DNA of 16,905 bases from the NCBI GenBank assembly GCA_020061125.1, contig JAGUYV010000033.1, positions 1-16,905 on the forward strand, written 5' to 3'. The stretch comes from a bacterium (GTDB lineage Bacteria > UBP15 > UBA6099 > DSWB01). The position numbers and the translations under genes are program-made. The notes beneath the pieces were generated by a model, which was not told the DNA's origin, ran no database searches, and saw only the letters and a list, made by a program, of their open reading frames with translations. Of the stretch, positions 2,352-16,905 are shown piece by piece. Position 1 is the stretch's first letter; every line of letters starts with the position of its first letter.

Positions 2352-4523
2352 TCAACGGAGCAGATCCCGGCAGCGCATGCGGGCGAGGCGCGCCTGTTCC
2401 GGTGTCATGGCGCGGCCGCCGTATGCGGCCATCTCGAACAATTTTCCCAGCGCCCGGAAATGCCTCGCCCTGTCCGGAGGCAGTTCCCTTGCGATTTCCG
2501 ATGGGACCGATGAGGGCAAAACAGCCACGCCGCGTTTCTTAAGCCCGCGCAGCGCGGCCGCATACTCCGCGACGATTCTTGAGTTGCTTTCAGGCAATTT
2601 ACCTCCAGGCCCCCGGGCGGCCCGGTGCGACCTTAACGCCAACAGGCCGAATGCCGCCAGCGCTGCACCAGCAGCCAGAAGCGCGGCAACCGTGGCTGCT
2701 GTTTTCGGCGCGCGCTGCGCCTTTGTGCGAAGACCGGTGAACAATATGGCCAGGGATTCGCGCGCTTTGCCCGCATATTCGGAGAGAAAATACGACAGCG
2801 GCGTCATGCGCACCGCGCCGATGGGGCCTTCGGGTCCGGGCGGCGTGGGGTCAAACGGCACCCAGCCTGCGTACGGGAAATACACCTCGCTCCATGCGTG
2901 CGCGTCAGCGCCAGAAATTTCAAAGAACCCCGTGACCGGGTTGTAACGGCCGGGAGCGAACCCGGTGACCAGGCGGGCGGGCATGCCAAGGGAGCGCGCC
3001 ATGAGTGTGAACGCACTCGCGTAATGTTCGCAGTAGCCCCGCCGGGAATGGAACAGAAAATACTCCACGGGGTCCACGCCGCGCGGAGCGCGGGGCGCAT
3101 CGAGATCGTATTGCGCCGATTGCATCAAATCCTTGCGAATCAGCGTCAGGGCGTCGTAATTGGAGGACGCGCCCGCGGCCAGGTTTCGAGCATGCCGCTG
3201 TACGCTCGGGGGAATGCCGTCCGTGGAGCAGTATGCGGCCAGCGCTTTCGGGCAGGGTGTGTTGCCCATGCGCAACATGCCGGGATCGCGAGCCGGCACG
3301 CGCGACACGGCTGTGTACACGGTGCCCCGCCGCAGAACCGCCGCGGCGCGCATGGCCATGTTCCGGTCCACCACAACTTCGGGTACAGGGAAATAGATCT
3401 CGTCCGGTTCGAGCGCGCTGTACACCAGGTTGGGCATATCGTGCTCGAAATAAAAAGTCTGGTAGATGAATTCGTCGTTGCCGGTGTAGGGATTGGAAAA
3501 GTACGGCTTGCGCAGCGACGACACCGAGAGGCTGGACGCCGAGGCTTTGTGGCCGAGGCGCGTTCCCTCGATGTCCGTGATTTCCCACTGTCCGCTCCTG
3601 TAGCGGTCGAACACCAGGCCGCGGTAGTAATTGGCGCTTCCGGTGCGCACGCGCATGAGCAGAGTGTCCGTGAGGCGGCCGCGCGCATTCAGATCCATGC
3701 GCGGCATGAACCCGAAGTAGGGATTGCCAAAATCGAAATTCATGTCCGAAATGTCAATGTTCGAATCGCCGTCGAGGACCACCGGCCCGGAGTCCGGCAG
3801 GCGGCTGGGAGGCTCGGGATACATAATCTGGCCGCCGTACTGCTGCATCATGGTGCGCACGCGTCCGCTGACCGGCAGCCCGGCGAATGCGTGTGTTTCC
3901 AGTCGCGGCATGAGCAGGAAAAACACGGGCGCGCCCAGGGCGATGAGTCCGAGAAACACGGCCAGGGTGCGCCCGAGTTGAACCGGAGCGCCGTGCGTAA
4001 CAGCGTCCTGGGACGCTTCCTGGAAGTGGTACAGCAGCAGGGTGATGAGCGACAGCAAAACGAACACGCCCAGAAACGCGCCGTACCACAGCGTGCGGCT
4101 CAACACCCCGCCCACGCACAGCAGCATGAAAGCGGACAGCACCGAATACACAAGGTCCTTGCGGCGCGGCAGGTCGAAGCTGTGCATGACCTGCATCACG
4201 ATCATCAGTTCCGTGAGAATAATCACATGGTCGCGCGAGGTGAACAGCATCTGGCCCACATAATGCCAGCCCGACCACAGAATCCCGATTGAGAGGAAGA
4301 TGCGCGCCCACCAGTTGGTGTACTCGCGCCGAAGATAACTGAACGCATATCCCGCGGTGATGCCAGCCAGACCCAGAACCATGGGACGGTGCAGTTCGTT
4401 GTACCACCCGGCCACGAAGATGCCCAGAGCCACGCACAGGAAGGTGAACAGGCGCAGGGGCGCGGAATGCTCGGTGTCCGGGCGGTTCGCCTTGCGGTTG
4501 ATGGCTGCGAGAATTGCGTTCAT
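2352..4523 (-). CDS. tgpA: TgpA-type membrane transglutaminase-like protein
   Basis: The protein is 723 aa. Several hydrophobic segments lie in residues 24-205 (for example FLCVALGIFVAGW, FLGVFVLLSLITLLLYHF), including the FDLPRRKDLVYSVLSAFMLL stretch typical of TgpA N-terminal domains. A large extracytoplasmic region follows. The transglutaminase core is at about 455-560 with a complete Cys-His-Asp triad: C498 in RRGYCEHYA, H542 in ADAHAW and D558 in WVPFDPT. Another membrane helix lies at about 610-630, then a short cytoplasmic tail. Family length and layout fit TgpA (DUF3488 plus Transglut_core), which is essential in Pseudomonas aeruginosa. Its substrate is not established. It is the last gene of a co-directional set, 25 nt after the DUF58 gene, matching the widespread MoxR-DUF58-transglutaminase association. 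No strong ribosome-binding site precedes the ATG, suggesting translational coupling. Confidence 0.92.
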   Translation of the reverse strand: MNAILAAINRKANRPDTEHSAPLRLFTFLCVALGIFVAGWYNELHRPMVLGLAGITAGYAFSYLRREYTNWWARIFLSIGILWSGWHYVGQMLFTSRDHVIILTELMIVMQVMHSFDLPRRKDLVYSVLSAFMLLCVGGVLSRTLWYGAFLGVFVLLSLITLLLYHFQEASQDAVTHGAPVQLGRTLAVFLGLIALGAPVFFLLMPRLETHAFAGLPVSGRVRTMMQQYGGQIMYPEPPSRLPDSGPVVLDGDSNIDISDMNFDFGNPYFGFMPRMDLNARGRLTDTLLMRVRTGSANYYRGLVFDRYRSGQWEITDIEGTRLGHKASASSLSVSSLRKPYFSNPYTGNDEFIYQTFYFEHDMPNLVYSALEPDEIYFPVPEVVVDRNMAMRAAAVLRRGTVYTAVSRVPARDPGMLRMGNTPCPKALAAYCSTDGIPPSVQRHARNLAAGASSNYDALTLIRKDLMQSAQYDLDAPRAPRGVDPVEYFLFHSRRGYCEHYASAFTLMARSLGMPARLVTGFAPGRYNPVTGFFEISGADAHAWSEVYFPYAGWVPFDPTPPGPEGPIGAVRMTPLSYFLSEYAGKARESLAILFTGLRTKAQRAPKTAATVAALLAAGAALAAFGLLALRSHRAARGPGGKLPESNSRIVAEYAAALRGLKKRGVAVLPSSVPSEIARELPPDRARHFRALGKLFEMAAYGGRAMTPEQARLARMRCRDLLR

Positions 4524-4548
4524 GGCAAAAGCATCCGGTGCGGGTGCG

Positions 4549-5619
4549 TTAGTTCATGGCGTCCCGTTGCGCCTTGTCCGCGGCATGCGCGGAGTCCGTG
4601 ACCCCGAAGCACATGGAAACATCCGCCGCATCCGCGGGAGTCCACTGGCCGTATTCCGATACGCCCGGCCTCTCGCGCAGTTCCGTAAGAGCGAACCATT
4701 CGAGTGCCCGCTCCCATTCGGCTTCGGACTGCAGGGTGATGGCTGGCGCGGCGGTTCCGTGAACGGTCACGGTGTAACCAAAGTCGAAGAGCAGCGCGCG
4801 CACCGCGGCCAGCCCGCGTTCGAGCATGGCCTCGAACTGCTGCTCCGCGTCCGGCGGCCAGCTTGCGCGCAGGTTGTCAATCAGAACCGATGCGCGGCCC
4901 GTGATCTTGCGCTCGCGCACTCGCACGATGGGCGCCCCCATGCGCGCTGTGAGTTTCCAGTGAATGTCCCGCAGGCTGTCGCCGGCGCTGTACTCGCGAA
5001 GGGTGTAATGGTACGGATCCGGCGCGGACAGCCGCCTCTGCGCGGGACCGGGATCGTGCAGCCCGTATTCCTTGAGCAGTTCGCGGCCCGGAGACGGCGC
5101 GAGACGGGGGTGCGTGAGAGTCTCCGCGTCCGAAACCGCGAGTCTTCGCACGCTGAAAATGCCGAGCGGCGCGGCGCACGAAATCACGAATGCGCCGGGG
5201 CCGCCGCTCCCGCGCCGCGCGCACACATATCGCACGGGCACGGAACGCGTTTCTCCCGGATCCAGCACCGTGAAGAAAACACCTCGGGGTACAAACTGAA
5301 AATCCGGGTTCGCGCATTCGATGCGGATCATGGCGCGCCGCGCGCGTGCGCGGTTCGCAACCGTGAGCGTGGCGCTGCACACCGCGCCGCGTTCGGTATG
5401 GCGCGGCAGCTCCATGGCCGCGGACACGCCGCGAACCATGGCCATGGGGAAAAAAACCGAGACCGCGGCCACCATGACAAACAGGGCGATGACCACGAAT
5501 AGCCATCCGGCCTGGATGTTGGACGCAATCAGATACAGAACGCCGAGCCACAGAACGATGAAGGCCAGGCGGGCGAACCGGCCGAGCCTGGATGCCATGT
5601 GTATGATGCCGAAGTTCAT
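4549..5619 (-). CDS. DUF58 domain protein
   Basis: The protein is 356 aa. Two hydrophobic segments lie near residues 17-58 (LAFIVLWLGVLYLIASN and WLFVVIALFVMVAAVSVFF). A beta-rich extracytoplasmic-type region follows, then the DUF58 signature at about 208-236: REYSAGDSLRDIHWKLTAR followed by GAPIVRVRE. After it comes a vWA-like fold region (SVLIDNLRASWPP). DUF58 proteins are encoded next to MoxR ATPases, which are thought to remodel vWA-like partners. The molecular role is unsettled. The gene starts 25 nt after the moxR stop and ends 25 nt before the transglutaminase start. An inner ATG at 5598 is an alternative start; the upstream region has only a weak CTGGAC as a possible ribosome-binding site. 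Confidence 0.9.
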   Translation of the reverse strand: MNFGIIHMASRLGRFARLAFIVLWLGVLYLIASNIQAGWLFVVIALFVMVAAVSVFFPMAMVRGVSAAMELPRHTERGAVCSATLTVANRARARRAMIRIECANPDFQFVPRGVFFTVLDPGETRSVPVRYVCARRGSGGPGAFVISCAAPLGIFSVRRLAVSDAETLTHPRLAPSPGRELLKEYGLHDPGPAQRRLSAPDPYHYTLREYSAGDSLRDIHWKLTARMGAPIVRVRERKITGRASVLIDNLRASWPPDAEQQFEAMLERGLAAVRALLFDFGYTVTVHGTAAPAITLQSEAEWERALEWFALTELRERPGVSEYGQWTPADAADVSMCFGVTDSAHAADKAQRDAMN

Positions 5620-5644
5620 GTGTCCAGGGGGCCGCGCGCGCCGG

Positions 5645-6592
5645 TCACGCGTTCATGGGCACGGGCATGCGGGACAGGATGCCGGAGATCACGGCCTGGT
5701 TGTTGTTGAGATTGAGGCGCGTGGCCGCGCGCAGAATCACGCGGTGCGCCAGCACGGGTGCGGCCAAGGCCTTTATGTCCTCGGGCGTGACGAATTCGCG
5801 GCCCCGGAACAGAGCGCGCGTCTGCGCGGCGCGCATGAGCGCCAGAGATGCGCGCGGGCTGGCGCCGAGCAGGATTTCCTCGCTGCGCCGCGTGGCGTTC
5901 ACGATATCGAGGATGTAGTTCATGACTGCCGGGCTGACATGCGCCTCGCGCGCGCGGTTCGCGATGTCCAGCGCTTGCGCCACGGTGAGAACCGGGGCCA
6001 GCGCGTCCAGGGGATCGGCGCCCGCGCGGTCCCGCATGATGCGCGTTTCCTGTTCGCGCGAGGGATAGCCCATGGAGATGCTGATCAGAAACCTGTCGAG
6101 CTGCGCCTCGGGCAGAGGGAAAGTGCCCTGCACCTCCACGGGATTCTGCGTGGCGATGACCATGAAAGGCGCTTCGAGCGGATAGGTTGCGCCGTCCACG
6201 GAAACCTGGCTTTCCTCCATGGCTTCGAGCAGGCTGGATTGCGTGCGGGGCGTGGCGCGGTTGATCTCGTCGGCCAGCAGCACATTGCAGAACACGGGGC
6301 CGGGATGAAACTCGAAGGCGTCCTTTTCGTGCCTGTAGATCGTGACGCCGGTGATGTCGCTGGGCAGCAGGTCCGGAGTAAACTGAACCCGCCGCGCCGT
6401 GCCGCCGATGCTGCGCGAAAGGGCCTTGGCCAAAGTGGTTTTTCCGACGCCGGGCAAATCCACGATCAGCAAATGCCCCTGGCTGAACAATGCGATGGCG
6501 GCCAGTTCCACGGTGTCCCGCCCGCCCGCGAAAACCATCTCGATATTGGCTATGAGCGATTCGATGACTGCCGATGTGTTGTCTTTCATCAT
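5645..6592 (-). CDS. moxR: MoxR-family AAA+ ATPase
   Basis: The protein is 315 aa from the ATG at 6592. Walker A is PGVGKT at residues 47-52, Walker B is LLADE (105-109), sensor 1 is in ATQN (147-150), and the conserved LPEAQLDRF motif (160-168) carries the expected Arg. A helical C-terminal lid contains SPRASLALMRAAQTRA. These are all MoxR hallmarks. MoxR ATPases act as cytosolic chaperones or remodellers for vWA/DUF58 partners, here very likely the next gene. The start was set at MMKDN because MoxR proteins usually begin about 40-50 residues before Walker A. A longer frame from ATG 6661 has GGAG 5 nt upstream but would overlap the antiporter gene by 29 nt; it remains possible. Confidence 0.93.
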   Translation of the reverse strand: MMKDNTSAVIESLIANIEMVFAGGRDTVELAAIALFSQGHLLIVDLPGVGKTTLAKALSRSIGGTARRVQFTPDLLPSDITGVTIYRHEKDAFEFHPGPVFCNVLLADEINRATPRTQSSLLEAMEESQVSVDGATYPLEAPFMVIATQNPVEVQGTFPLPEAQLDRFLISISMGYPSREQETRIMRDRAGADPLDALAPVLTVAQALDIANRAREAHVSPAVMNYILDIVNATRRSEEILLGASPRASLALMRAAQTRALFRGREFVTPEDIKALAAPVLAHRVILRAATRLNLNNNQAVISGILSRMPVPMNA

Positions 6593-6632
6593 TTCATTGT
6601 AAAAACCGCTATGGAGGGTGTCAAACACGGCC

Positions 6633-8354
6633 TCACGATGGAGACGGGCCGTTGCTCCCATTGTCTCCGTTCGCCATCAGCTTGATCAATTCCAGCCGGC
6701 TCTTTGCGAGCAACACGCGCTCCATCATGCCGGGGTCGCGGAATATGCGGGCAATTTCCGGAACAAATTCCAACTGCTCGATGGAATTCTGGCTGGGCAT
6801 GAGAATCAGAAAAATCACATGGGCCGGATTTCCGTCCGGGGAATCGAAATCAATGCCCTGTTTGGAAATGCCGACAACCACGAGAGGTTCCGTGAGACCC
6901 TTGATGTGCGCATGCGGAATGGCCACGCCGTTGCCGATGCCTGTGTTGAGCGCTTTTTCGCGCGCCCACACCGCCCCGTCCGCCATTTGCGCGTCAAACC
7001 CCTTCCTCCGGCTCGCGAACTGGGTGATTTCTTCAATAACTTCCCGATGGGTTCTCGATTTCAGATGCTGCATGAACAGCGCCCTTGAGAGAACCTCTCG
7101 CAAACGCCATGTTTTTTTCCTTTTGTCAAGACAGTATTTCATGGCGGGGCCGCTGATCACGGATGTTGCGATAGCCATGACGACCAGAGCAACGAACAGC
7201 CGGGTGCGGATGATTCCGGCGTTGAGAGCCAAAAGCCCGAGGATTATTTCCATGGCGCCGCGGGAATTCAGGCCCACGCCGATCGCCATGGAATCCCATT
7301 TGGGCATGCCCGACCATCGCGCGCCCAGATATCCCCCGGCCAGCTTGCACCCGCAGGCTATCGCCAGAACCAGAATGACGAGTCCCGCATCGAAGTGCTC
7401 CGCAAAATCCACCTTGAGGCCGATGCTCGCGAAAAACAGCGGCGCGAATATGTAGGAAATGAAATTTTCCAGAATCACCCGCGTGTGTTCGCGCAGGTTG
7501 GTGGAGTCCCCTATGGCCACCCCCACGATGAACGCCCCGAAAATCGCGTGGATTCCTATCCATTCGGTGAACGCCGCGCCCAGCAGGGTGAGAACGATGG
7601 CGAAGCTGATCACGCTGCCCGGCCACTTGGCGTATTTCTGCAAAAACGGAATGGTTTTGTGAATCAGCAACCGTCCAATCGTAAGCACGGCCGCGGCGAA
7701 GGCGAGAGTATTGAACACAATCATGGCAATGCCGTTGCCATGCGTTGGCCCCGAACCCATCATGGAAAGGATGATGGCGAACACAATCCATCCGGCCAAA
7801 TCGCTGAACACGGCGGCGCTGACCACAACCATGCCCAGATCGCTCCGGTACAGGCCAAGATCCATGAGCGTTTTTGCGATGACGGGAAGCGCGGAGATTG
7901 ACAGGGCGATTGCGAAAAACAGCGCGAACACAAGATTGTCCGCCCCCTCGTGACGGCCCAGCGCACGGGGAATAATCATTGCTGCGGCGAATCCCATGAC
8001 AAACGGAATCACCATGCTGCTGCTGCCGATTTTAAATCCCGCGCGGCCCTGCTTCCAGATTGTGGACAAATCCACTTCAATTCCGGCCACCATAAGAAAC
8101 AGAACCACGGACAGCGTGGCAACGGCATCAAGCGCAATCAGATTCGGTCCGTGCAGCGGGAACAGCAGCGCGCCCAGCTCCGGATTGAAATTTCCTAGGA
8201 TCGTCGGCCCCAAAATCACGCCCGCAAGCAATTCCCCGAGCACTGCGGGCTGATGAAAGCGCTGGGCCAGTTCTCCGAGCGTCCGGGCCAGGCCAAGCAT
8301 CAGCCCCAGTGCAAGAAGCATCACCATGACATTGTGCGAAGTCAGATATTCCAT
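6633..8354 (-). CDS. CPA2 (Kef-type) cation/proton antiporter fused to PTS EIIA domain
   Basis: The protein is 573 aa. Residues about 8-405 form a 12-13 helix monovalent cation/proton antiporter of the CPA2 family. Signs are QPAVLGELLAGVILGP (35-50), LFLMVAGIEVDL near 85-96, the SALPVIAK and AVFSDLAGW helices with the ion-binding Asp185, and GLNSRGAMEIILGLLAL (361-377). Residues about 425-560 form a type-2 PTS EIIA domain with the phosphorylation motif NGVAIPHAH (475-483); His481 is the expected phospho-acceptor. Fusion suggests transport controlled by PTS (possibly nitrogen-type PTS) phosphorylation, as seen for K+ systems regulated by EIIA-Ntr; here this is inference. The gene is the first of the - strand set, about 63 nt after a candidate promoter. 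GGCGGA is a weak ribosome-binding site. The ion (Na+ or K+) cannot be told. Confidence 0.92.
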   Translation of the reverse strand: MEYLTSHNVMVMLLALGLMLGLARTLGELAQRFHQPAVLGELLAGVILGPTILGNFNPELGALLFPLHGPNLIALDAVATLSVVLFLMVAGIEVDLSTIWKQGRAGFKIGSSSMVIPFVMGFAAAMIIPRALGRHEGADNLVFALFFAIALSISALPVIAKTLMDLGLYRSDLGMVVVSAAVFSDLAGWIVFAIILSMMGSGPTHGNGIAMIVFNTLAFAAAVLTIGRLLIHKTIPFLQKYAKWPGSVISFAIVLTLLGAAFTEWIGIHAIFGAFIVGVAIGDSTNLREHTRVILENFISYIFAPLFFASIGLKVDFAEHFDAGLVILVLAIACGCKLAGGYLGARWSGMPKWDSMAIGVGLNSRGAMEIILGLLALNAGIIRTRLFVALVVMAIATSVISGPAMKYCLDKRKKTWRLREVLSRALFMQHLKSRTHREVIEEITQFASRRKGFDAQMADGAVWAREKALNTGIGNGVAIPHAHIKGLTEPLVVVGISKQGIDFDSPDGNPAHVIFLILMPSQNSIEQLEFVPEIARIFRDPGMMERVLLAKSRLELIKLMANGDNGSNGPSPS

Positions 8355-8507: not shown

Positions 8508-8535
8508 ACCTTCAGATTTATTTCCCGCTTCATGT

Positions 8536-8562
8536 TAAGGATGTTCCCAAGGCCGCCGATGA
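8536..8562 (+). promoter_or_regulatory. Sigma-28 (FliA)-like promoter for the flagellin gene
   Basis: TAAGGATG (8536-8543), an 11-nt spacer, then GCCGATGA (8555-8562). The flagellar sigma-28 consensus is TAAAGTTT-N11-GCCGATAA, so the -10 matches 7 of 8, the -35 about 5 of 8, and the spacing is exact. The leader to the ATG would be about 205 nt, which is long, and this lowers confidence. Confidence 0.5.
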
Positions 8563-8773: not shown

Positions 8774-10528
8774 ATGGTCATAAACACGGACATCGCCAGC
8801 ATGACCGGGCGCAACGCGCTGCGCACCGCGGACCTGGATTTCCGCACGCGCATGCAGCGCTTGAGTTCGGGCCTGCGCATCAACCAGGGCGCTGACGACC
8901 CCTCTGGCCTGGCCATCTCCGAAGGCATGCGCGCGCAGATCCGCGGCCTGGACGCAAGCATTCACAATCTTCAGGACACAGTCAATATGCTTCAAACCGT
9001 GGACGGCGCGGCCGCAGAACTCCAGGACATGGTGCAGCGCATGCGCGACTTGAGCGTGCGCGCGGCCAATGAAGCGACCCTCACCGCGCGTGACCGCTCC
9101 AACATCCAGAACGAAATCCAGTCCCTGGCGAGCGCCATGCGACAGGTGGCTTTCGACCTCAAATTCAACGGCAAGGACCTCAACGGAGAACAGAAAATTG
9201 CATTCCAGTCCGAACGCACGGGCGACTCGGAAATTTTCATCATGGACGCCAACGGAAACGCGCCAGCCAACCTCACGAACATGGCCGGCAACCAGAGAAA
9301 CGCGGTCCCCTCACCCGACGGCTCATTCATCGCGTTCGATTCCTTTCAAGCCAACTGGGAGGTCACAGTGATTCCCGCGCAGGGCGGCGCACCCATAAAT
9401 TTGACGAATCATCCGCAGGAAGATATCTGGAAATCCTGGTCCCCGGACGGCGAGCGGCTGCTGTTCAGATCGTTCCGCGACGGCAACTACGAGCTGTACG
9501 CCGTGGAACGCGACGGCTCCAATCTGGTGAACCTTACCAACAACCCCGGCACGGACACCGTTCCCGCAGTGTGGTCTCCGGATGGCACGCGCATCGCTTT
9601 CGTGAGCCAGCGCGACGGCAACCAGGAGTTGTATGTGGTGGACAGCGACGGCGGCAACCTCACGAATCTCACACAGCACCCCGGCGAGGATTTCTGGCCC
9701 GAGTGGTCGCCTGACGGGTCCAAAATCGCGTTCCTTTCCACCCGGTCCGGAAACTACGAGCTTTATGTAATCAACGAGGACGGATCCGGACTTGTGAATG
9801 TGAGCAACTCATTGGCCGCCGACATGCAGCCAGCCTGGTCGCCTGACAGCTCACAACTCGCGTTCGCGTCTCCACGCAGCGGCTTCTGGAATGTCTATGT
9901 GGTCAACGCAGACGGCTCCGGACTCGAAATGGTCACCGACAACACGGGGCTGCTCCTGTATCCCTTCTGGTCTCCGGATGGCAAGAGCATCGGGTATACT
10001 TCCCTGCGCACCGGAGACTGGGAAATCTACTCCATAGACATCGGATCGGGCCAACCCGCGGTAAACCTCACAAATTCCCCGGGATACGATTTCGCGCTGA
10101 CCAACGGCTGGCACCTGGGAACCCTGGAGCTGAATGTGCAGGCGGGTCCGGATTCCTCGCACCACTTTGAACTGGAGTTGCGGCCGTTGTCCCCACGGAG
10201 CCTGGGCGTGGCGGGCCTGCGCGTGGACACAGCCAAACGGGCCGGGCGAGCCATCGAGCTATGCGATCATGCGTTGAACGCGCTCGGAGACTACCGCGCG
10301 GAGATCGGAATCATGAGCCGCCGCGCCGGGCATGTTATTGACGACAACATTGCCGCGCGCATCAACGAAAGCGCCGCGCGCTCGCGCATTGCGGACGCGG
10401 ACATGGCCGCGGAAAGCGCAGCCTATGCGCGCGCTGCGATCGTGCGCCGGTCCGCGGAGGGCATGATTGCCAATGAGCAATCCCTGCGGCGAGCCGCATT
10501 CGATTTGCTGTTTGAATCTCTGAAATAA
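8774..10528 (+). CDS. fliC: Flagellin with inserted TolB/PD40 beta-propeller
   Basis: The protein is 584 aa. Residues 1-138 are the flagellin N-terminal D0/D1 region: MVINTDIASM, RMQRLSSGLRINQGADDPSGLAISE, an MRDLSVRAANE block and FNGKDLNG. Residues 450-584 are the D1/D0 return: TLELNVQAG, then a long helix region with the AARSRIADADMAAESAAY signature and a C-terminal FDLLFESLK. Residues 142-449 hold seven PD40/WD40-like units of 43-45 residues, with IAFxSxRxGxxELYVVDxDG and WSPDG motifs, in place of the variable D2/D3 domains. No frameshift is seen, so this is one translated protein. Flagellin is exported by the flagellar type III system and polymerises into the filament; propellers would decorate its surface. 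Cys497 in D1 is unusual for a flagellin. No clear Shine-Dalgarno is seen; the start is fixed by flagellin homology. No other flagellar gene is in the window. Confidence 0.93.
   Translation: MVINTDIASMTGRNALRTADLDFRTRMQRLSSGLRINQGADDPSGLAISEGMRAQIRGLDASIHNLQDTVNMLQTVDGAAAELQDMVQRMRDLSVRAANEATLTARDRSNIQNEIQSLASAMRQVAFDLKFNGKDLNGEQKIAFQSERTGDSEIFIMDANGNAPANLTNMAGNQRNAVPSPDGSFIAFDSFQANWEVTVIPAQGGAPINLTNHPQEDIWKSWSPDGERLLFRSFRDGNYELYAVERDGSNLVNLTNNPGTDTVPAVWSPDGTRIAFVSQRDGNQELYVVDSDGGNLTNLTQHPGEDFWPEWSPDGSKIAFLSTRSGNYELYVINEDGSGLVNVSNSLAADMQPAWSPDSSQLAFASPRSGFWNVYVVNADGSGLEMVTDNTGLLLYPFWSPDGKSIGYTSLRTGDWEIYSIDIGSGQPAVNLTNSPGYDFALTNGWHLGTLELNVQAGPDSSHHFELELRPLSPRSLGVAGLRVDTAKRAGRAIELCDHALNALGDYRAEIGIMSRRAGHVIDDNIAARINESAARSRIADADMAAESAAYARAAIVRRSAEGMIANEQSLRRAAFDLLFESLK
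9197..10120 (+). repeat. Seven PD40/TolB-type propeller units within the flagellin gene
   Basis: Unit starts, taken at the IAF-like strand, fall at residues 142, 186, 229, 274, 318, 362 and 406. The period is 43-45 residues, about 132 nt. Units 3-6 are the most alike, and unit 2 is the most divergent (ANWEVTVIPAQGG). Six WSPDG/PSPDG-type turns are present; the turn after the last unit is replaced by the flagellin strand TLELNV, which falls in register. Six or seven blades are possible. Confidence 0.85.
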
Positions 10529-10531
10529 TGA

Positions 10532-11971
10532 TTATGGAGCGGTCGAGGCCGCGATCCTCGCGGGCGGGGGCGCACCGCCGCCGCCGGTGTCTGGCTGAAT
10601 GGTGAGGGTGACGGACGCAGTTCCCGCGTTCCCGGCGCTGTCACGGATCCGCGACTGAAGCTGCAACGGCGCGGACGCCTGCAAATCCCACAGGTTTAAA
10701 AGAACATATAAAACGCGGGCCGATCCGTCCGTGGCCAGGCCCACGGGTTCCGCGGCCAGGCTGATCGTGCCCGTAACCGCGGCGCTGGTTGTGCCGAGAA
10801 TGCTTACGGTGTCCGTGTCCTTGTTCAAAATATACAACGCGGACAGTCCCGTGGACTGGGGCGCCGGGCGCAGGGAGAACGGCGCCTGGCTCTGCGGCCC
10901 GAGAGCCACGGTGGCGATGACCGCGCCGGTGCCCGCATTCAGAACCGTGACGGTGTCGTCGTCGAAATCCGCGGCGAACAGTCTGTTGCTCGCTGCGTCG
11001 TATGCCAGGTCCTCGGGGTTCTCGGCAAGTGACGCCAGTTTGGTTTCCGCGCCCCCGCTGATGAGATAAATTCCCCTGGCCGCGCCAAGCCCGCCCGCAT
11101 AATAGACCCGCGCCGTGGCCGCCCCGTCTGATGCGATGACCTGCGGAATGTTGCCCAGGGAAACTGTGGACGCGGAAAGCGTGGCGCAATTGATGACCGA
11201 CATGTTCGTGCTGTTGCTGAATATGGCGTATGCCGTGGATGTCGTCCGGTTCAAGGCCATGCCCCACGGGGTTCCGCTCACGGCCACGGCGCCGGCGTAA
11301 GCTCCCGCGGATGTGTAGGCGTAAATGTTCGCGCTGTTCTCGTACGCCACCAGAATTCTGTTCTGCGACGGGCAGGCCCTGATGATTGCGGGCTTGCCGG
11401 GCAGGGTCACTTCCCTGATGGTTGCGCCTGTGGTGAGGTTAACATAGATGAGCCTGTTGCGCGATGTGGCGGCCACATACAGGATGCCGTTTGTTTCGTC
11501 GGCGTCCACGAGATTGAGGCGGCCCGCGGATCCGCTGGAGACGCCGAATACGGGCACGGTTCCGGCCAGCGCCCCGGTGCTCATGTCGTATTTCGCCAAT
11601 ACGGTCCAGTACAGCGGAGATACGGTTGAGCCTGTGGATGCGGTTGAAGCGCCCGCCGTGAACAGGCTCGACAGGTCAACGGTCTGACCGCGGAATGTAA
11701 ACCAGGAGAAAAAAGAGGATGTGGTGACGCCGCCCGCATCCGAATAAGAAACGGAGAGAGTTTGCGGAAGAATCGCGGGATCGGCCTTGAAAGAGGTCGT
11801 GCCCGAGGGGTTGGGAGATGTGAACTGGATGGATGGGGCGGTTGTGTCGCCGCCGCCTCCGCCACCGCCACCCCCTCCGCCGCCGCATGACGCGGCGCCC
11901 AGGGCACAGCCCAAAAGGCATAGCGTCAACAATATCATTTTTCGCAAGCCACAGGAAAACAGGAAATGCAT
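10532..11971 (-). CDS. YncE-like beta-propeller lipoprotein
   Basis: The protein is 479 aa. The start ATG is preceded by GAGGG at about 6 nt. The N-terminus is a lipoprotein signal: hydrophobic MILLTLCLLGCALG, then AASC with Cys29 as the likely lipidated residue (LLGC at Cys22 is an alternative), then 12 glycines as a flexible tether. An Ig-like stretch (DTTAPSIQFTSPNPSGT...LSVSYSDAGG) follows. From about residue 120 to 420 come repeated propeller-type strands such as LVDADETNGILYVAATS, NRLFAADFDDDTVTVLNAGTGAVIATV and ALYILNKDTDTVSILGTT, as in YncE/lactonase-like seven-bladed propellers. It ends with another Ig-like segment (RDSAGNAGTASVTLTI). It probably binds at the outer membrane or surface; ligand unknown. 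It starts 14 nt after the upstream multidomain gene. Its stop lies 3 nt from the convergent flagellin stop. Confidence 0.85.
   Translation of the reverse strand: MHFLFSCGLRKMILLTLCLLGCALGAASCGGGGGGGGGGGGDTTAPSIQFTSPNPSGTTSFKADPAILPQTLSVSYSDAGGVTTSSFFSWFTFRGQTVDLSSLFTAGASTASTGSTVSPLYWTVLAKYDMSTGALAGTVPVFGVSSGSAGRLNLVDADETNGILYVAATSRNRLIYVNLTTGATIREVTLPGKPAIIRACPSQNRILVAYENSANIYAYTSAGAYAGAVAVSGTPWGMALNRTTSTAYAIFSNSTNMSVINCATLSASTVSLGNIPQVIASDGAATARVYYAGGLGAARGIYLISGGAETKLASLAENPEDLAYDAASNRLFAADFDDDTVTVLNAGTGAVIATVALGPQSQAPFSLRPAPQSTGLSALYILNKDTDTVSILGTTSAAVTGTISLAAEPVGLATDGSARVLYVLLNLWDLQASAPLQLQSRIRDSAGNAGTASVTLTIQPDTGGGGAPPPARIAASTAP
11849..11884 (-). repeat. Poly-glycine trinucleotide tract
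   Basis: Twelve consecutive Gly codons (mixed GGC/GGA/GGT/GGG) directly follow the lipidated Cys of the propeller lipoprotein. The tract is imperfect at the DNA level and length changes in steps of 3 would stay in frame, so it would alter tether length rather than switch expression. Confidence 0.85.
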
Positions 11972-11985
11972 GGGCGCCCTCTTCC

Positions 11986-14223
11986 CTACTGCTCCTCGTC
12001 CGGCGGCAGGGGCGGCGCAACGGGGTTCAGGGTGATTGTGGTGGAATTCGTGGCATTGCCCGAGGTTGCAATTATCGTGGCGGTTCCGGGACTGGTTCCA
12101 GCGATGTAAGTCGCCACAGCGTTTCCGTCCGAGGTAAGCGCCGCGGCGGGGGACATGGTTCCATTATCTGTCTGGAAATTGACCTGCACATTGTCGGCCA
12201 CGATGCTGCCCGCGTTGTCCAGCACCCGAGCGGTCACCTGTGTGGTCTGCGTACCGTCCGCGTCCAGCTCGAATGTGTCCGCTTCCAGTTCAATGAAATA
12301 GGCGGTTCGGGATGCGCGCAGAAATGTGTTCGGGTCAATGACCTCGGAAAATTTCCATTCTCCTTCTTCATACAGGTAGTTGAACACGGCATAATTTGTG
12401 GCGCGCGACACGCCTGTCTTGTCGGTCCAGTTGAATTCCACGGACCCGGTTTTGGCCTGAATGTTCGCGTAGACATCCTGCACCGTGTACTGAATGTTCA
12501 CAGTGCAGCAGCGGAACCGTTCCTCGATGGAGGTTTCCAGTTCGTTGAGATCCCGCAGATCTTCGATGTTGCTGCCGTAATCGTTGGATGTGCTTCGAAT
12601 GAAGGTTGTGCGGTCTTTGTCCAGGAACGCGCGCATCATGGCGTCAAACACTTCCCGGAGCATTTCGTTGTTGGTCTTTGTGCGGTATTGAAAAATGTAA
12701 GCGTCGAACTGTTCCTCGGAGCGATTGCCCATGACATCCGTGGCGCGCGCCCTGACCTTGTAGGTCTCGCCGTCCGACGGGCTGATGTCAAAGGTCCAGT
12801 TTTCGATTCCTGACGCCGGTTCCCAGGATATTCCGTCATCTTTTGACACTTCAACGCTTTGCAGTTCGGACACATCCACATCGGCCTGGAAAGAGCCGAT
12901 GGACTGCTCCTTGTCCTCGTTGTCCCGGGCTACGAATTCGAGCTTGTAAGTCAGGATGTTGCGGCCTGGAGACGCATTGCCAGCGACCCTGATGCGGCCG
13001 GACTGCATGTCCTCGCGCGTAAGCATGCTGTCTTCCTCGAAAGATTGTGCGGCCTGGTCGGCGAGGGTCACATTGTACACCACGGGCGCGTTCGGGAACT
13101 CCTGAACCACGCGGATGCTCACATCGAAACTGGTGATGTTGTCCAGCGGGGTTTCCTCATCGTTGATTTTGAGGACCAGCTTCCATTTGTCGGCGTCCGC
13201 AACAGTTGCACGGCCCGCGACTTTGATGGAATCGTCGGCGATGTTTTTGTGGGTAAGATTCAAAACCTCGCCGATGGATGCGCTGACGCCTCCGATGGTC
13301 ACGGAGGTGAGAACCGGCGCGCCATCGAGCGCGGTCTTGTTGTCCCCGGAACTTACTGAAGTGGAGAAGCTCAAAGTCTTCTGCGCGGGCCCTTCCGCGG
13401 GAGTGAATGTCTGAACGGTTTCGACCTGCTCGGGCTGTTTCTGGCGGTGTTCGCCCCTGGCGATGGCCAGGCCGGCTTCGGATTCCGGGCCGTCCTGCAG
13501 CAGGCCCACGCGGGTCTGGTTCCAGTATTCGTTGAGCGCTTCCAGGGAAACCGCCTGTTGGTCGGTTTTCACGGAAACGCGCGGAGAGTCTTCCGGAACT
13601 TCCTGTTGCGAATACGTGGCGACATCGTCTTCGAACATCTCAAAGGGTTCGCCGGTTTCCCCTGCCGGGCCGAGGTCCATCATGAACGCGGGGGGAATGG
13701 TCAGGGGTTCGGCGGCGCCGTGCGGCAGCACGGTCTGCTCGCCCTCCACGGACGCCACGATGGAATACTTTTCCTCGTCCACCACTATATAGACCGTGCC
13801 CTGCGCCTGCATGCTCTGTCCGGGCAGCATGACAAGGCCCTTGTCACCCTTGAAAAGGGCTTCGCCGAAAAGCAATTCCGGCACCACCGCGGACGCATCG
13901 CCGTCTCCGGCCGAGATACTGTTGAGGCGGAACACGGAAAACGGCTGCATCCAGATCTGGTAATTCGAAAAATGGAAGACCACGGACTCGTCCTTGGCCG
14001 CCAGGATGTCGCCGTAGGTGATTTTGATGTCCTTGTCTTTGGCGTAATCAACGCCCTCGACCTGCTTCTGCCACTCCTGCTTGTCTTTCTCGCGTTTGAA
14101 GATGCCTTTATCCGCAGGGGCGTCCTGCGCGGGCGCGGCGGGTTGCGCCATAGCCGGAACGCACACGGGCGCGAGCGCAAGGCAAATGATAATTACACGG
14201 TAAAAGTTGAGGAGTCTGGTCAT
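11986..14223 (-). CDS. Secreted FecR-like, Ig-like, Big_1 multidomain surface protein
   Basis: The protein is 745 aa from ATG 14223. A Sec signal peptide, MTRLLNFYRVIIICLALAPV to AMA/Q (cleavage near residue 26), decides the start; the longer frame to 14271 would translate the upstream terminator hairpin. Residues about 68-165 resemble a degenerate FecR domain (GDILAAKDESVVFHFS, QAQGTVYIVVDEEKYSIVA). Residues about 300-510 are beta-rich with Ig-like units (YKVRARATDVMGNRSEE). Residues about 515-630 look like an NTF2-like domain, with a helix pair followed by NYAVFNYLYEEGEWKFSEV. Residues about 645-735 form a Big_1-like Ig domain (FELDADGTQTTQVTARVLDN, NGTMSPAAALTSDGNAVATY). It is probably exported and surface- or envelope-associated. 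It precedes the lipoprotein gene by 14 nt. No Shine-Dalgarno is seen before the ATG. Confidence 0.8.
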   Translation of the reverse strand: MTRLLNFYRVIIICLALAPVCVPAMAQPAAPAQDAPADKGIFKREKDKQEWQKQVEGVDYAKDKDIKITYGDILAAKDESVVFHFSNYQIWMQPFSVFRLNSISAGDGDASAVVPELLFGEALFKGDKGLVMLPGQSMQAQGTVYIVVDEEKYSIVASVEGEQTVLPHGAAEPLTIPPAFMMDLGPAGETGEPFEMFEDDVATYSQQEVPEDSPRVSVKTDQQAVSLEALNEYWNQTRVGLLQDGPESEAGLAIARGEHRQKQPEQVETVQTFTPAEGPAQKTLSFSTSVSSGDNKTALDGAPVLTSVTIGGVSASIGEVLNLTHKNIADDSIKVAGRATVADADKWKLVLKINDEETPLDNITSFDVSIRVVQEFPNAPVVYNVTLADQAAQSFEEDSMLTREDMQSGRIRVAGNASPGRNILTYKLEFVARDNEDKEQSIGSFQADVDVSELQSVEVSKDDGISWEPASGIENWTFDISPSDGETYKVRARATDVMGNRSEEQFDAYIFQYRTKTNNEMLREVFDAMMRAFLDKDRTTFIRSTSNDYGSNIEDLRDLNELETSIEERFRCCTVNIQYTVQDVYANIQAKTGSVEFNWTDKTGVSRATNYAVFNYLYEEGEWKFSEVIDPNTFLRASRTAYFIELEADTFELDADGTQTTQVTARVLDNAGSIVADNVQVNFQTDNGTMSPAAALTSDGNAVATYIAGTSPGTATIIATSGNATNSTTITLNPVAPPLPPDEEQ

Positions 14224-14230
14224 AAAGGTG

Positions 14231-14262
14231 AAAAAACCCGGCGGCCGTGAAAGCCGCCGGGT
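14231..14262 (-). terminator. Intrinsic terminator of the FecR gene
   Basis: On the - strand ACCCGGCGGC (14262-14253) and GCCGCCGGGT (14245-14236) make a perfect 10-bp GC-rich stem with a 7-nt loop, followed by a run of T (complement of A14231-14236). It lies 17 nt after the FecR stop and ends 8 nt before the next gene's ATG. Confidence 0.88.
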
Positions 14263-14279
14263 TGTATGCATGCCGTCGT

Positions 14280-15218
14280 TTAGCGTTCTTCGAACTGCAC
14301 ATCCGCGCTGATGGTGATCTCCTCGCGGACCGTGGTGGTGATCTCGATGACGACCAGACCTTTTTCGTTGCTGGTGACCTCGAGGGTCTGGGCGCCGTTC
14401 TGCAGGAAGGTGGCCGAGCCGCCCAGGTTCAGAATGTAAGTGACTGCGCCGTTGTAGGCCTTGCCGTTTTCCAGGAACTGAACCGTGACGGTTGCCTTGG
14501 CGCCGGGCTGAAGGGTCGGGGGATCGATTTTGATGTTGAGATCGTAGATGGCGTTGCCCGCGTCCAGCGCGCCCTCGATGCCGCCGGCCAGACCGGCTTG
14601 CAATTCATCAGCGGGAATCTGGCTGGCGTTGGCCGGGCGCGCCGCGCCCTGCTTGACTTCGGTGCGATGGTTCTGGCGCACGGCCACCTGGTAGGCGGGA
14701 TCGTTGCGCTGGTGCACGGCCACTTCACCCTCGAACACATCGAAGGTGCTGTCCGTGGACTGTTCCACTTCGGTGGAGAAATAGGTGCCGCGCACGCCGG
14801 CCACTGCGGTCGGGGTGCCCACATTGAACTTGTCCCGGGCCACATCTAGCTTTTTGACCTTGTTCCAGCTCTTGCCCACTTCCACATCCATGCCCGTGTC
14901 CTTGCCGCGCAGCGACCGGTTCAGTTTTTGAATGGTCAGCGTGGACAGGGAGGTGAGCTGGTTGATGGAACCGTCGTCCAGCTTGATGACGACCTTGGAT
15001 CCGGACTTGGTGCGCACAATGTCGCCCTCGTTCAGAACCATGCCTTTGCTCGCCGCAACCCATTTGGATGTGCCGTTTTTCTTGACTTCCACGGTGCCGC
15101 TCATGCTCTCGACCGTGGCTCGCCGCGTGCTCAATGCTGTGAGGTTCATGGCATAGACCACAAAGAACCCTGCTACAAGAGCCAGAGCCAATCCGATCTT
15201 TTTGTAATTGGTTTTCAT
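14280..15218 (-). CDS. FecR domain protein with Ig-like C-terminus
   Basis: The protein is 312 aa from ATG 15218, chosen for a strong GGAGGGGGAGA ribosome-binding region just upstream; an in-frame ATG at 15317 would lie upstream of the predicted promoter start and is rejected. Residues 8-24 (IGLALALVAGFFVVYAM) are a signal peptide or anchor. A clear FecR domain follows (about 35-165): GDIVRTKSGSKVVIKLDDGS, then the hallmark PTAVAGVRGTYFSTEV and FDVFEGEVAVH. The C-terminal ~80 residues are beta-rich and Ig-like (IDPPTLQPGAKATVTVQF). In classical systems FecR is an inner-membrane anti-sigma regulator. Here there is no cytoplasmic regulator part and no ECF sigma gene in view, so an extracytoplasmic structural or binding role is more likely. 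The gene has its own promoter and terminator. Confidence 0.9.
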   Translation of the reverse strand: MKTNYKKIGLALALVAGFFVVYAMNLTALSTRRATVESMSGTVEVKKNGTSKWVAASKGMVLNEGDIVRTKSGSKVVIKLDDGSINQLTSLSTLTIQKLNRSLRGKDTGMDVEVGKSWNKVKKLDVARDKFNVGTPTAVAGVRGTYFSTEVEQSTDSTFDVFEGEVAVHQRNDPAYQVAVRQNHRTEVKQGAARPANASQIPADELQAGLAGGIEGALDAGNAIYDLNIKIDPPTLQPGAKATVTVQFLENGKAYNGAVTYILNLGGSATFLQNGAQTLEVTSNEKGLVVIEITTTVREEITISADVQFEER

Positions 15219-15300
15219 GAGAATCTCCCCCTCCGGGTTTTTATCATGTTCTTTATAACGATACAATGAACATATAAGTCCATTTGTTTCATTATTATCT

Positions 15301-15329
15301 ATTATACTCCTGTTCAAACCAAAAGTGAA
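15301..15329 (-). promoter_or_regulatory. Sigma-70-type promoter for the FecR gene
   Basis: On the - strand TTCACT (15329-15324), a 17-nt spacer and a perfect TATAAT (15306-15301). Expected transcription start is near 15294, giving a leader of about 75 nt that contains the strong ribosome-binding site. The surroundings are AT-rich, in contrast with the GC-rich coding DNA. Confidence 0.7.
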
Positions 15330-15408
15330 ACTTTTTTGTACGGAAAAATCTTACGGATTTCGCGCCACCCGCCCGTCTCTTTATAAATACTGAAATCGCT
15401 CAAAAACA

Positions 15409-16905
15409 TCAGTAAAATATGGCATATTTGAATTGGTAATAAGTCTCGTCGTAGAGGATGAAATTGTTGTACATCATTTCAAAGTTCATTTCTGTGTTGG
15501 TGTCGGGGTTGACTTTGCCCCAGCGCAGCTTCGTGGTTGTGCGGTCCAGGGTCGGCTGAACCTTGTTGATGTACTCCTGGGCCACACGCATGTCGCTCCA
15601 GTCGGACAGCTCATACGCAATCGTGAATACATTCTTGGTTTCCGGTCCGAAGACATTGTTGTTGAGCTTGGTGAGAGAATACAAAAGTTCCGTGCGTTCG
15701 TAAACCGGTGTTCTCAAGTTCAGAGTGAGCAGGCGTTCCATTTCCGGATCGCGCAGATTGCGCAGCTTTCGCTCTTTCTTGTACCCAATCTGCGAGCGCA
15801 CGCTGCCGAACTCGTGGCGGATATCCACTTCGTTGGAGAAGGTGTCTTTGAACGAATCTCCTTTATCATAATAGGTAAGCCGGTAGCGGTATTCGAGGGT
15901 TGTGGTGGGCCTTTCCGGGAACGGCAGATATTTGACGATCACGGGAACGGAAACGGTGTGGCTTCCGCCGTCGCGGAAGGTTCTGCGCCTGAAGCCGAGC
16001 ACCGTGGTCATGCGCCTGCTGTTTTTGTATTGCAGGGAGGTGTTGAACTCCACAAGCCCGTTTGACGCGAATCCGCCTTCGGTGCGGAAGTTGGAACCGA
16101 CGCTTTCATATTTGGCCGTGGCGTAGGCTTTGTCTTTTCTCCAAGTGGCTTCGAGGCGGTAGGCCATGGCGTCGGCCAGGTCGGTGTACCGGCTCTGCGC
16201 CCATTCCATTTTGGTTTCGCCGTAGGCGTATTTCTTGCTGGCGTCTATTCCGAACAGGCCGCTGCTGGTGTCCACGCCGCCGCGCACGGTATTCATGTGG
16301 GTGCCCACATAGTGCGCGCCCCAGGACATGCCGCTCGGGGTCACGCTCTGGTAACGGATACCGTAAATGTCTATATTTTTCCCCGCGCGCGGGGTTTTGA
16401 ATTTGCCGCCGAACAGGTGATAGGAGTTTCCGGAACCGATCTTGTTCTCGAACTCTCCCCCGTACAGGCGCTGTCCGGTGAGGGAGTATGTCGTGTACTT
16501 GGGATTGATGTCGTACATGGACAGGCGCTTGGACTCGTCCTGGAGCGAGACATTGAAATTTTTGAGCATGGTGAAGGACTCGGAGTCGTCGCCGTCGCTG
16601 GTGCCTTCCATGCGCATATTGACATTAAGCGACGGGAAGGTGAACCATCCGCGGCCCGGGCGGCTGTTCATGGCGGTCTGGGAGCGCACGCCGAGGTTGT
16701 AAATATAGGCGTTGCGGGGCCGCTGCGAACTGGAATCCTTGTCCCCGTCCACGGACATATTCTCGAATCCGTACATGATGTTCCAGGCGTACTCGAAACC
16801 GCCCTGGAACGGTTCATCTTCGGACTGTTCAGCGGCGAGCTGCGCCCCGGCGTCCGGCGCGGCGCCGTCCGGCCCTGTCATGGAACCGGCGCGCGCAGCG
16901 GTTTC
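15409..16905 (-). CDS. Outer-membrane beta-barrel protein (5' end outside window)
   Basis: The frame is open to the right edge, giving 498 residues. The ATG at 16881 has no ribosome-binding site and the frame stays open beyond it, so the N-terminus with its signal peptide is probably missing. The C-terminal ~460 residues show repeated amphipathic strands alternating aromatic and polar residues (YRLEATWRKDKAYATAKYES, TTTLEYRYRLTYYDKGDS, FTIAYELSDWSDMRVAQEY). The last strand is YYQFKYAIFY, ending in an aromatic residue as BamA-recognised barrel proteins do. Loops are rich in D, G, S and N. I do not recognise the family. No intrinsic terminator is seen after the stop, 80 nt before the FecR promoter -35. 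Location upstream of FecR and surface proteins suggests a joint envelope role. Confidence 0.75.
   Translation of the reverse strand, partial: ETAARAGSMTGPDGAAPDAGAQLAAEQSEDEPFQGGFEYAWNIMYGFENMSVDGDKDSSSQRPRNAYIYNLGVRSQTAMNSRPGRGWFTFPSLNVNMRMEGTSDGDDSESFTMLKNFNVSLQDESKRLSMYDINPKYTTYSLTGQRLYGGEFENKIGSGNSYHLFGGKFKTPRAGKNIDIYGIRYQSVTPSGMSWGAHYVGTHMNTVRGGVDTSSGLFGIDASKKYAYGETKMEWAQSRYTDLADAMAYRLEATWRKDKAYATAKYESVGSNFRTEGGFASNGLVEFNTSLQYKNSRRMTTVLGFRRRTFRDGGSHTVSVPVIVKYLPFPERPTTTLEYRYRLTYYDKGDSFKDTFSNEVDIRHEFGSVRSQIGYKKERKLRNLRDPEMERLLTLNLRTPVYERTELLYSLTKLNNNVFGPETKNVFTIAYELSDWSDMRVAQEYINKVQPTLDRTTTKLRWGKVNPDTNTEMNFEMMYNNFILYDETYYQFKYAIFY

Follow-up and report, generated by a model that had tools for sequence, protein, structure and literature searches.

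Flagellins that carry a foreign domain in their variable region are the closest described relatives of the gene reported here. Eckhard et al. (2017; PMC5595980) surveyed 26,587 flagellins and counted 61 types of domain within the variable region; the ten most frequent ones tabulated there include gluzincin peptidase (86), vWFA (21) and Sialidase (10), with PD40/TolB repeats absent from that top ten. Since peptidase, VWA and 'sialidase' inserts were tabulated in 2017 (PMC5595980), domain-inserted flagellins are a known principle. The vWFA and 'Sialidase' flagellins resemble our gene in having recognisable domains at the same place, and in Table 1 of that survey they stand as entries, with no further study there. 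Flagellin variable regions in general are extremely diverse (PMC7018530). The giant flagellins, which also have very large central inserts, assemble into thick filaments, and those studied had no similarity to enzyme domains (PMC6248924). Export and assembly of large flagellin inserts are documented in the giant flagellins and in the peptidase flagellins (PMC5595980, PMC6248924).

Flagellinolysin, described in Clostridium haemolyticum (FliA(H)) and Hylemonella gracilis (PMC5595980, PMC7643111), likewise has a foreign domain in the flagellin variable region, and C. haemolyticum has it as a second subunit alongside a plain flagellin. Its domain is an HExxH metallopeptidase, whereas the insert of our gene is a PD40 propeller without HExxH. 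Peptidase-flagellin filaments were shown to be active in the 2017 study (PMC5595980); display and activity are proven for flagellinolysin, whereas for our propeller we infer display. A flagellinolysin-style flagellin with an HExxH insert is also encoded in the same genome, on contig C328 (L031).

A flagellin gene with a propeller insert

The window, by which we mean the whole stretch of 16,905 nucleotides that was analysed, contains at 8774..10528 (+) a propeller-bearing flagellin gene with an open frame of 584 codons plus stop. The stop-free translation (584 aa) matched Flagellin_N at residues 3–136 (E 2.3e-29, 102.7 bits, cut-off 26.6), PD40 (PF07676, E 6.4e-55, with six stretches significant separately) and Flagellin_C at residues 495–579 (E 2.5e-8, 34.6 bits, cut-off 23). 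Each match exceeded the Pfam gathering score, and the E-values exclude a chance origin of the flagellin and PD40 matches. The gene consists of an N-terminal D0/D1 flagellin part (residues 1–138, 8774..9187, +; PF00669), a predicted seven-bladed PD40/TolB-type propeller (residues 141–441, 9194..10096, +) and a return segment (LNVQAGPD) followed by the C-terminal D1/D0 flagellin part (residues 442–584, 10097..10525, +; PF00700). The insert lies between FNGKDL and LNVQAGPD, and other flagellins of the order have the pattern FN(T/G)K ... (L/I)QxG(P/A)D at the matching site. The propeller occupies the position of the outer D2/D3 domains of other flagellins.

The protein resembles flagellin more than it does the junction protein FlgL, with 159 bits for the flagellin model NF009448 versus 53 bits for the FlgL model (cut-off 127), and a separate flgL-like gene is present in the same genome (L035:9881-11119). 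Its N-terminal part is 57% identical to that of the metallopeptidase flagellin on C328. The C-terminal domain contains the motif SRIADADMAAE (SRIxDADMAxE), though it has an odd residue make-up and is diverged, its Flagellin_C score comparing with 50–90 bits in most sister flagellins.

On the other strand, a convergent gene (10532-11971, -) ends 4 bases from the flagellin stop; it is lipoprotein-like, had no Pfam match and shows YVTN-like propeller repeats by eye. Three exported-looking genes follow in a run (11986-16881, -): one with a weak Big_1/invasin-like domain, one encoding a FecR-domain protein and one encoding an outer-membrane-like protein without Pfam match. Further away, a MoxR-like ATPase, a DUF58-like protein and a TgpA-type transglutaminase stand in a row (2352-6661, -), a common bacterial cluster in which the Pfam basis is for the transglutaminase only. 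A viral scan gave no match.

Fold and relatives of the insert

AlphaFold placed seven blades at residues 141–441, with pLDDT mostly 83–98. This model was obtained with a propeller-only alignment of 27 stand-alone propeller stretches (A3); in the first fold (alignment A1) MAFFT had misaligned the flagellin rows over the N-terminal part and blade 2 was undefined, and a mixed fragment alignment (A2) performed worse and was set aside. With A3, the flagellin ends were predicted to be helical, at lower confidence than the propeller because the alignment rows did not cover them. The last short strand of the propeller model comprises residues 439–441 and, judging from the strand order, seems to join blade 1 in closing the ring and to bring both ends of the insert together. 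With its N- and C-terminal strands meeting in blade 1, such a propeller could be inserted like a D2/D3 domain. The preliminary description had read the locus as one uninterrupted 584-aa frame with flagellin ends around seven PD40 units. Translation and the Pfam matches bear out the frame and the ends, its junction points coincide with the insert site of the order's flagellins, and the seven repeats, readable by eye, correspond to the seven blades of the complete propeller in the model.

The top structural match, with Z 31.4 and an rmsd of 2.2 over 297 residues, was the S9 peptidase propeller of 8wt1. Further matches were seven-bladed propellers of designed origin (7bid, Z 27.8), a YVTN propeller from an archaeal S-layer (1l0q, Z 26.5) and TolB (2ivz, Z 24.3), which is also the nearest solved protein by sequence. 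With both PD40 repeats and a complete predicted seven-bladed fold, the insert is of the same kind as TolB and other PD40 propellers (1crz, 2ojh, S9 peptidase propellers). It is not TolB itself: the score of 301.6 bits is below the equivalog cut-off (343.15), and the N-terminal domain present in TolB is absent from the window protein, as is its family from the Pfam matches. An S9 peptidase was rejected as well, since the Pfam scan found no hydrolase family and the flagellin C-terminal part comes after the propeller; flagellinolysin was rejected for lack of HExxH. A search with the whole protein matched ten contig loci, mainly through the propeller part, and the long frames of these loci contained no flagellin N-domain.

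Insert flagellins in the genome

We found 21 Flagellin_N loci in the window's genome: one flgL-like, one cut by a contig end, nine without a large insert and ten with inserts of about 175–730 aa. An eleventh insert flagellin, whose start is missing, lies on C52. Assigned by Pfam, motif or homology (by eye for C180 and C299), propellers of the TolB/PD40 type and VWA domains account for four each of the 11, and the remaining three are an HExxH metallopeptidase and two other mostly-beta inserts. Beside the window they lie on C328, C422, C287, C69, C299, C180, C189, C423, C433 and C52 (loci L031, L034, L036–L039, L041, L043, L047 and L048).

The four propeller flagellins are those of the window, with its PD40 insert recognised by Pfam, and of C422, C423 and C52. 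C422 has a weak TolB-like propeller of similar length to the window insert (hhalign probability 97%). C423 and C52 combine calcium-type DxDGDG repeats with a TolB-like propeller, C423 by hhalign (98%) and C52 by its 46–47% identity to L120/L121 (hhalign 97% for L120). Among the VWA inserts, that of C69 was above the Pfam cut-off and that of C189 just under it, while C287 and C433 were assigned by homology to these two together with D-x-T-x-S motifs. The metallopeptidase of C328 was recognised by its HEMTH motif, and C180 and C299 have a PPC/jelly-roll-like and a giant beta-looking insert, respectively. The propeller-like insert of C422 (L034:2500-3500) has a G+C of 0.35–0.42 versus about 0.6 for its contig, a composition that suggests a recent acquisition or a different history.

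Comparison within and outside the order

The order was sampled with seven genomes including that of the window, and all seven had several flagellins. Between families, metallopeptidase inserts were 52% identical, calcium-repeat propeller inserts 46–47%, PPC-like inserts 35–41% and giant inserts 28–30%; VWA inserts in other families were 27–41% identical to that of C287. Two families have flagellins, up to 1027 aa long, in which DxDGDG repeats precede a TolB-like propeller (L120:1911-4976, L121, L043:2823-5903 and L048:2-2026), the L048 insert being 46–47% identical to those of L120 and L121. In an N-domain tree built without the inserts, flagellins with the same insert clustered across genera with strong support (metallopeptidase, two groups of VWA flagellins and most giant ones), so these combinations of flagellin and insert are old. 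The window PD40 hybrid had no orthologue in the six other genomes of the order, and its N- and C-domains had no firm placement on the trees.

The sample from outside the order consisted of 11 regions of eight unrelated genomes, selected because their flagellin frames were long or clustered. It contained a VWA-insert flagellin with an intact DxSGS (L137:1024-2544, genome G035; 44.6 bits, cut-off 23.8) and a flagellin with about seven DGGY-type repeats (L129:2690-4594, genome G058), to which a flagellin of a second species of the same genus is 96% identical (G250:C1:884066-885970). The DGGY insert is probably a propeller unrelated to PD40, going by its repeats; a PD40 relationship was rejected (hhalign probability 0.3%), the repeats being propeller-like in look alone, and there was a weak match to CylK (E 0.0086). 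A motif scan of 20 large-insert flagellins from the family of G058 found no HExxH, no PD40 repeat array and no VWA-like insert. The VWA and DGGY inserts indicate that such inserts arise elsewhere too; within the small sample taken, the density of insert flagellins in the order is unusual.

Promoters and flagellar genes

A consensus scan found a weak sigma28-like promoter, TTAAGGAT-N12-GCCGATGA, at 8535..8562 (+), 211 nt upstream of the ATG (11/14); this site, a sequence match of predicted function, tied for the best in the window. No clear Shine-Dalgarno was found upstream of the gene, and a sigma70 scan gave nothing above chance. The flgL-like gene has a sigma28-like site upstream (TAAAGTTT-N12-GCCGATAA), and close matches also precede the C422 propeller flagellin, the calcium-repeat-propeller genes L120 and L121, VWA genes, giant genes, and one gene each of the metallopeptidase and PPC-like classes; between some of these sites and their gene lie several hundred bases. 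In total, we counted 42 sites at this level versus 10–12 in shuffled sequence, with some overlapping sites counted twice and a bias towards the consensus because it was adjusted on the same set. The genome has FliD and, as recognised by eye, flgI-, flgK- and flgL-like genes; a search for FlhA found none in its 79% complete assembly, and five of the seven genomes of the order have it.

Discussion

We consider it probable, at roughly 60%, that the gene encodes a true flagellin, probably a minor subunit, whose outer D2/D3 domain is a PD40/TolB propeller displayed on the filament and most likely serving in binding. The flagellar type III system would export the chain in unfolded form through the flagellar channel; the two ends of the chain would fold as part of the filament's D0/D1 core, and the propeller would fold outside and stand on the surface. 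There it would most likely bind a polymer, a surface or another protein, a role we favour because no hydrolase is attached. For display we count the flagellar genes, the sigma28-like promoters on many insert flagellins, the shared insert site and the insert classes conserved between families; against it, the diverged C-terminal domain, the weak promoter, the lack of a clear Shine-Dalgarno and of an orthologue in the order, and the missing FlhA.

By arithmetic on the standard filament lattice, subunits are at least 51 Å apart at radii from 80 Å, so a propeller of about 45–50 Å would fit even at every filament position. The display proposed in the preliminary description is a reasonable idea that goes beyond the sequence itself. 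The figure given there of thousands of propellers per filament presumes a major subunit, and the signals favour a minor one: the promoter is weak, a clear Shine-Dalgarno is lacking, the C-terminal domain has diverged and nine flagellins of the genome have no large insert, so a propeller flagellin mixed in among short insert-free ones is more likely than a pure propeller filament.

Several other explanations bear on this reading. The propeller could be a bulky outer domain only, affecting filament thickness, stiffness, antigenicity or hiding from phages, with no specific ligand. Outer domains of many flagellins do affect filament mechanics (PMC8931119), giant flagellins thicken filaments (PMC6248924), and for some large beta inserts of the order (L038, L110, L111 and L116) no functional fold is known. 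We nevertheless regard this as rather unlikely, because binding or enzyme folds can be recognised in the insert classes (HExxH peptidase, VWA with D-x-S/T-x-S, PD40, calcium repeats) and several of these classes are conserved across genera, which a mere spacer would not need. The weak promoter and Shine-Dalgarno, the diverged C-terminal domain and the absence of an orthologue from the other genomes of the order would also suit a relic or poorly expressed hybrid that stays unassembled or is secreted as a monomer; with 584 codons open through both flagellin domains, all seven blades intact in the AlphaFold model (pLDDT mostly above 83) and the SRIxDADMAxE motif kept, this seems improbable.

A catalytic propeller, for instance a lactonase- or lyase-like enzyme on the filament, is very improbable: some propellers are enzymes, and Pfam gave oligogalacturonate lyase as a weak match (E 9.6e-8) and lactonase as a sub-threshold one, but shared PD40 repeats explain both, catalytic residues were not identified and a hydrolase domain is absent. 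Finally, the genome is a metagenome assembly in 513 contigs (4.1 Mb), which leaves room for a chimera joining a flagellin to a stand-alone PD40 gene. Such a chimera would require two in-frame joins exactly at conserved boundaries. The reading frame is continuous through both insert junctions, the third-position G+C of the three gene parts (0.83, 0.75 and 0.75) resembles that of the neighbouring genes (0.71–0.81), and propeller flagellins also occur on other contigs of the same genome (three further ones) and in other genomes of the order; on these grounds, the hybrid is almost certainly not an assembly product.

A limited literature search found neither a PD40/TolB-propeller flagellin nor an account of a single genome with so many kinds of insert flagellin. 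Sialidase is itself a propeller fold. The earlier remark that a propeller insert was not known as described agrees with this search for PD40/TolB, but the insert is not alone, given the four TolB/PD40-type flagellins of the genome, the conserved calcium-repeat propellers, the unrelated propeller-like flagellins of G058 and G250 and the 'Sialidase' entry of 2017.

The window flagellin is a well-formed, real hybrid, and the larger point is the repertoire around it: it belongs to an order-wide set with differing surface modules (metallopeptidase, VWA, calcium-repeat propellers and other beta domains). Since the genome encodes about eleven flagellins with a large insert, its flagellum may serve as a rod presenting modules for binding and enzyme activity. 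We advance tentatively, at somewhat less than even odds, that the filament in this order is a modular display rod, in which about half of the genome's flagellins carry a distinct, partly long-conserved module and, mixed with plain ones, form an organelle of several functions, in part enzymatic and adhesive. Conservation of the insert classes renders the display idea testable one gene at a time. If true, it would extend the protease flagellin, one well-studied case, to a general principle of module-carrying flagella, and would offer natural templates for filaments bearing large folded domains.
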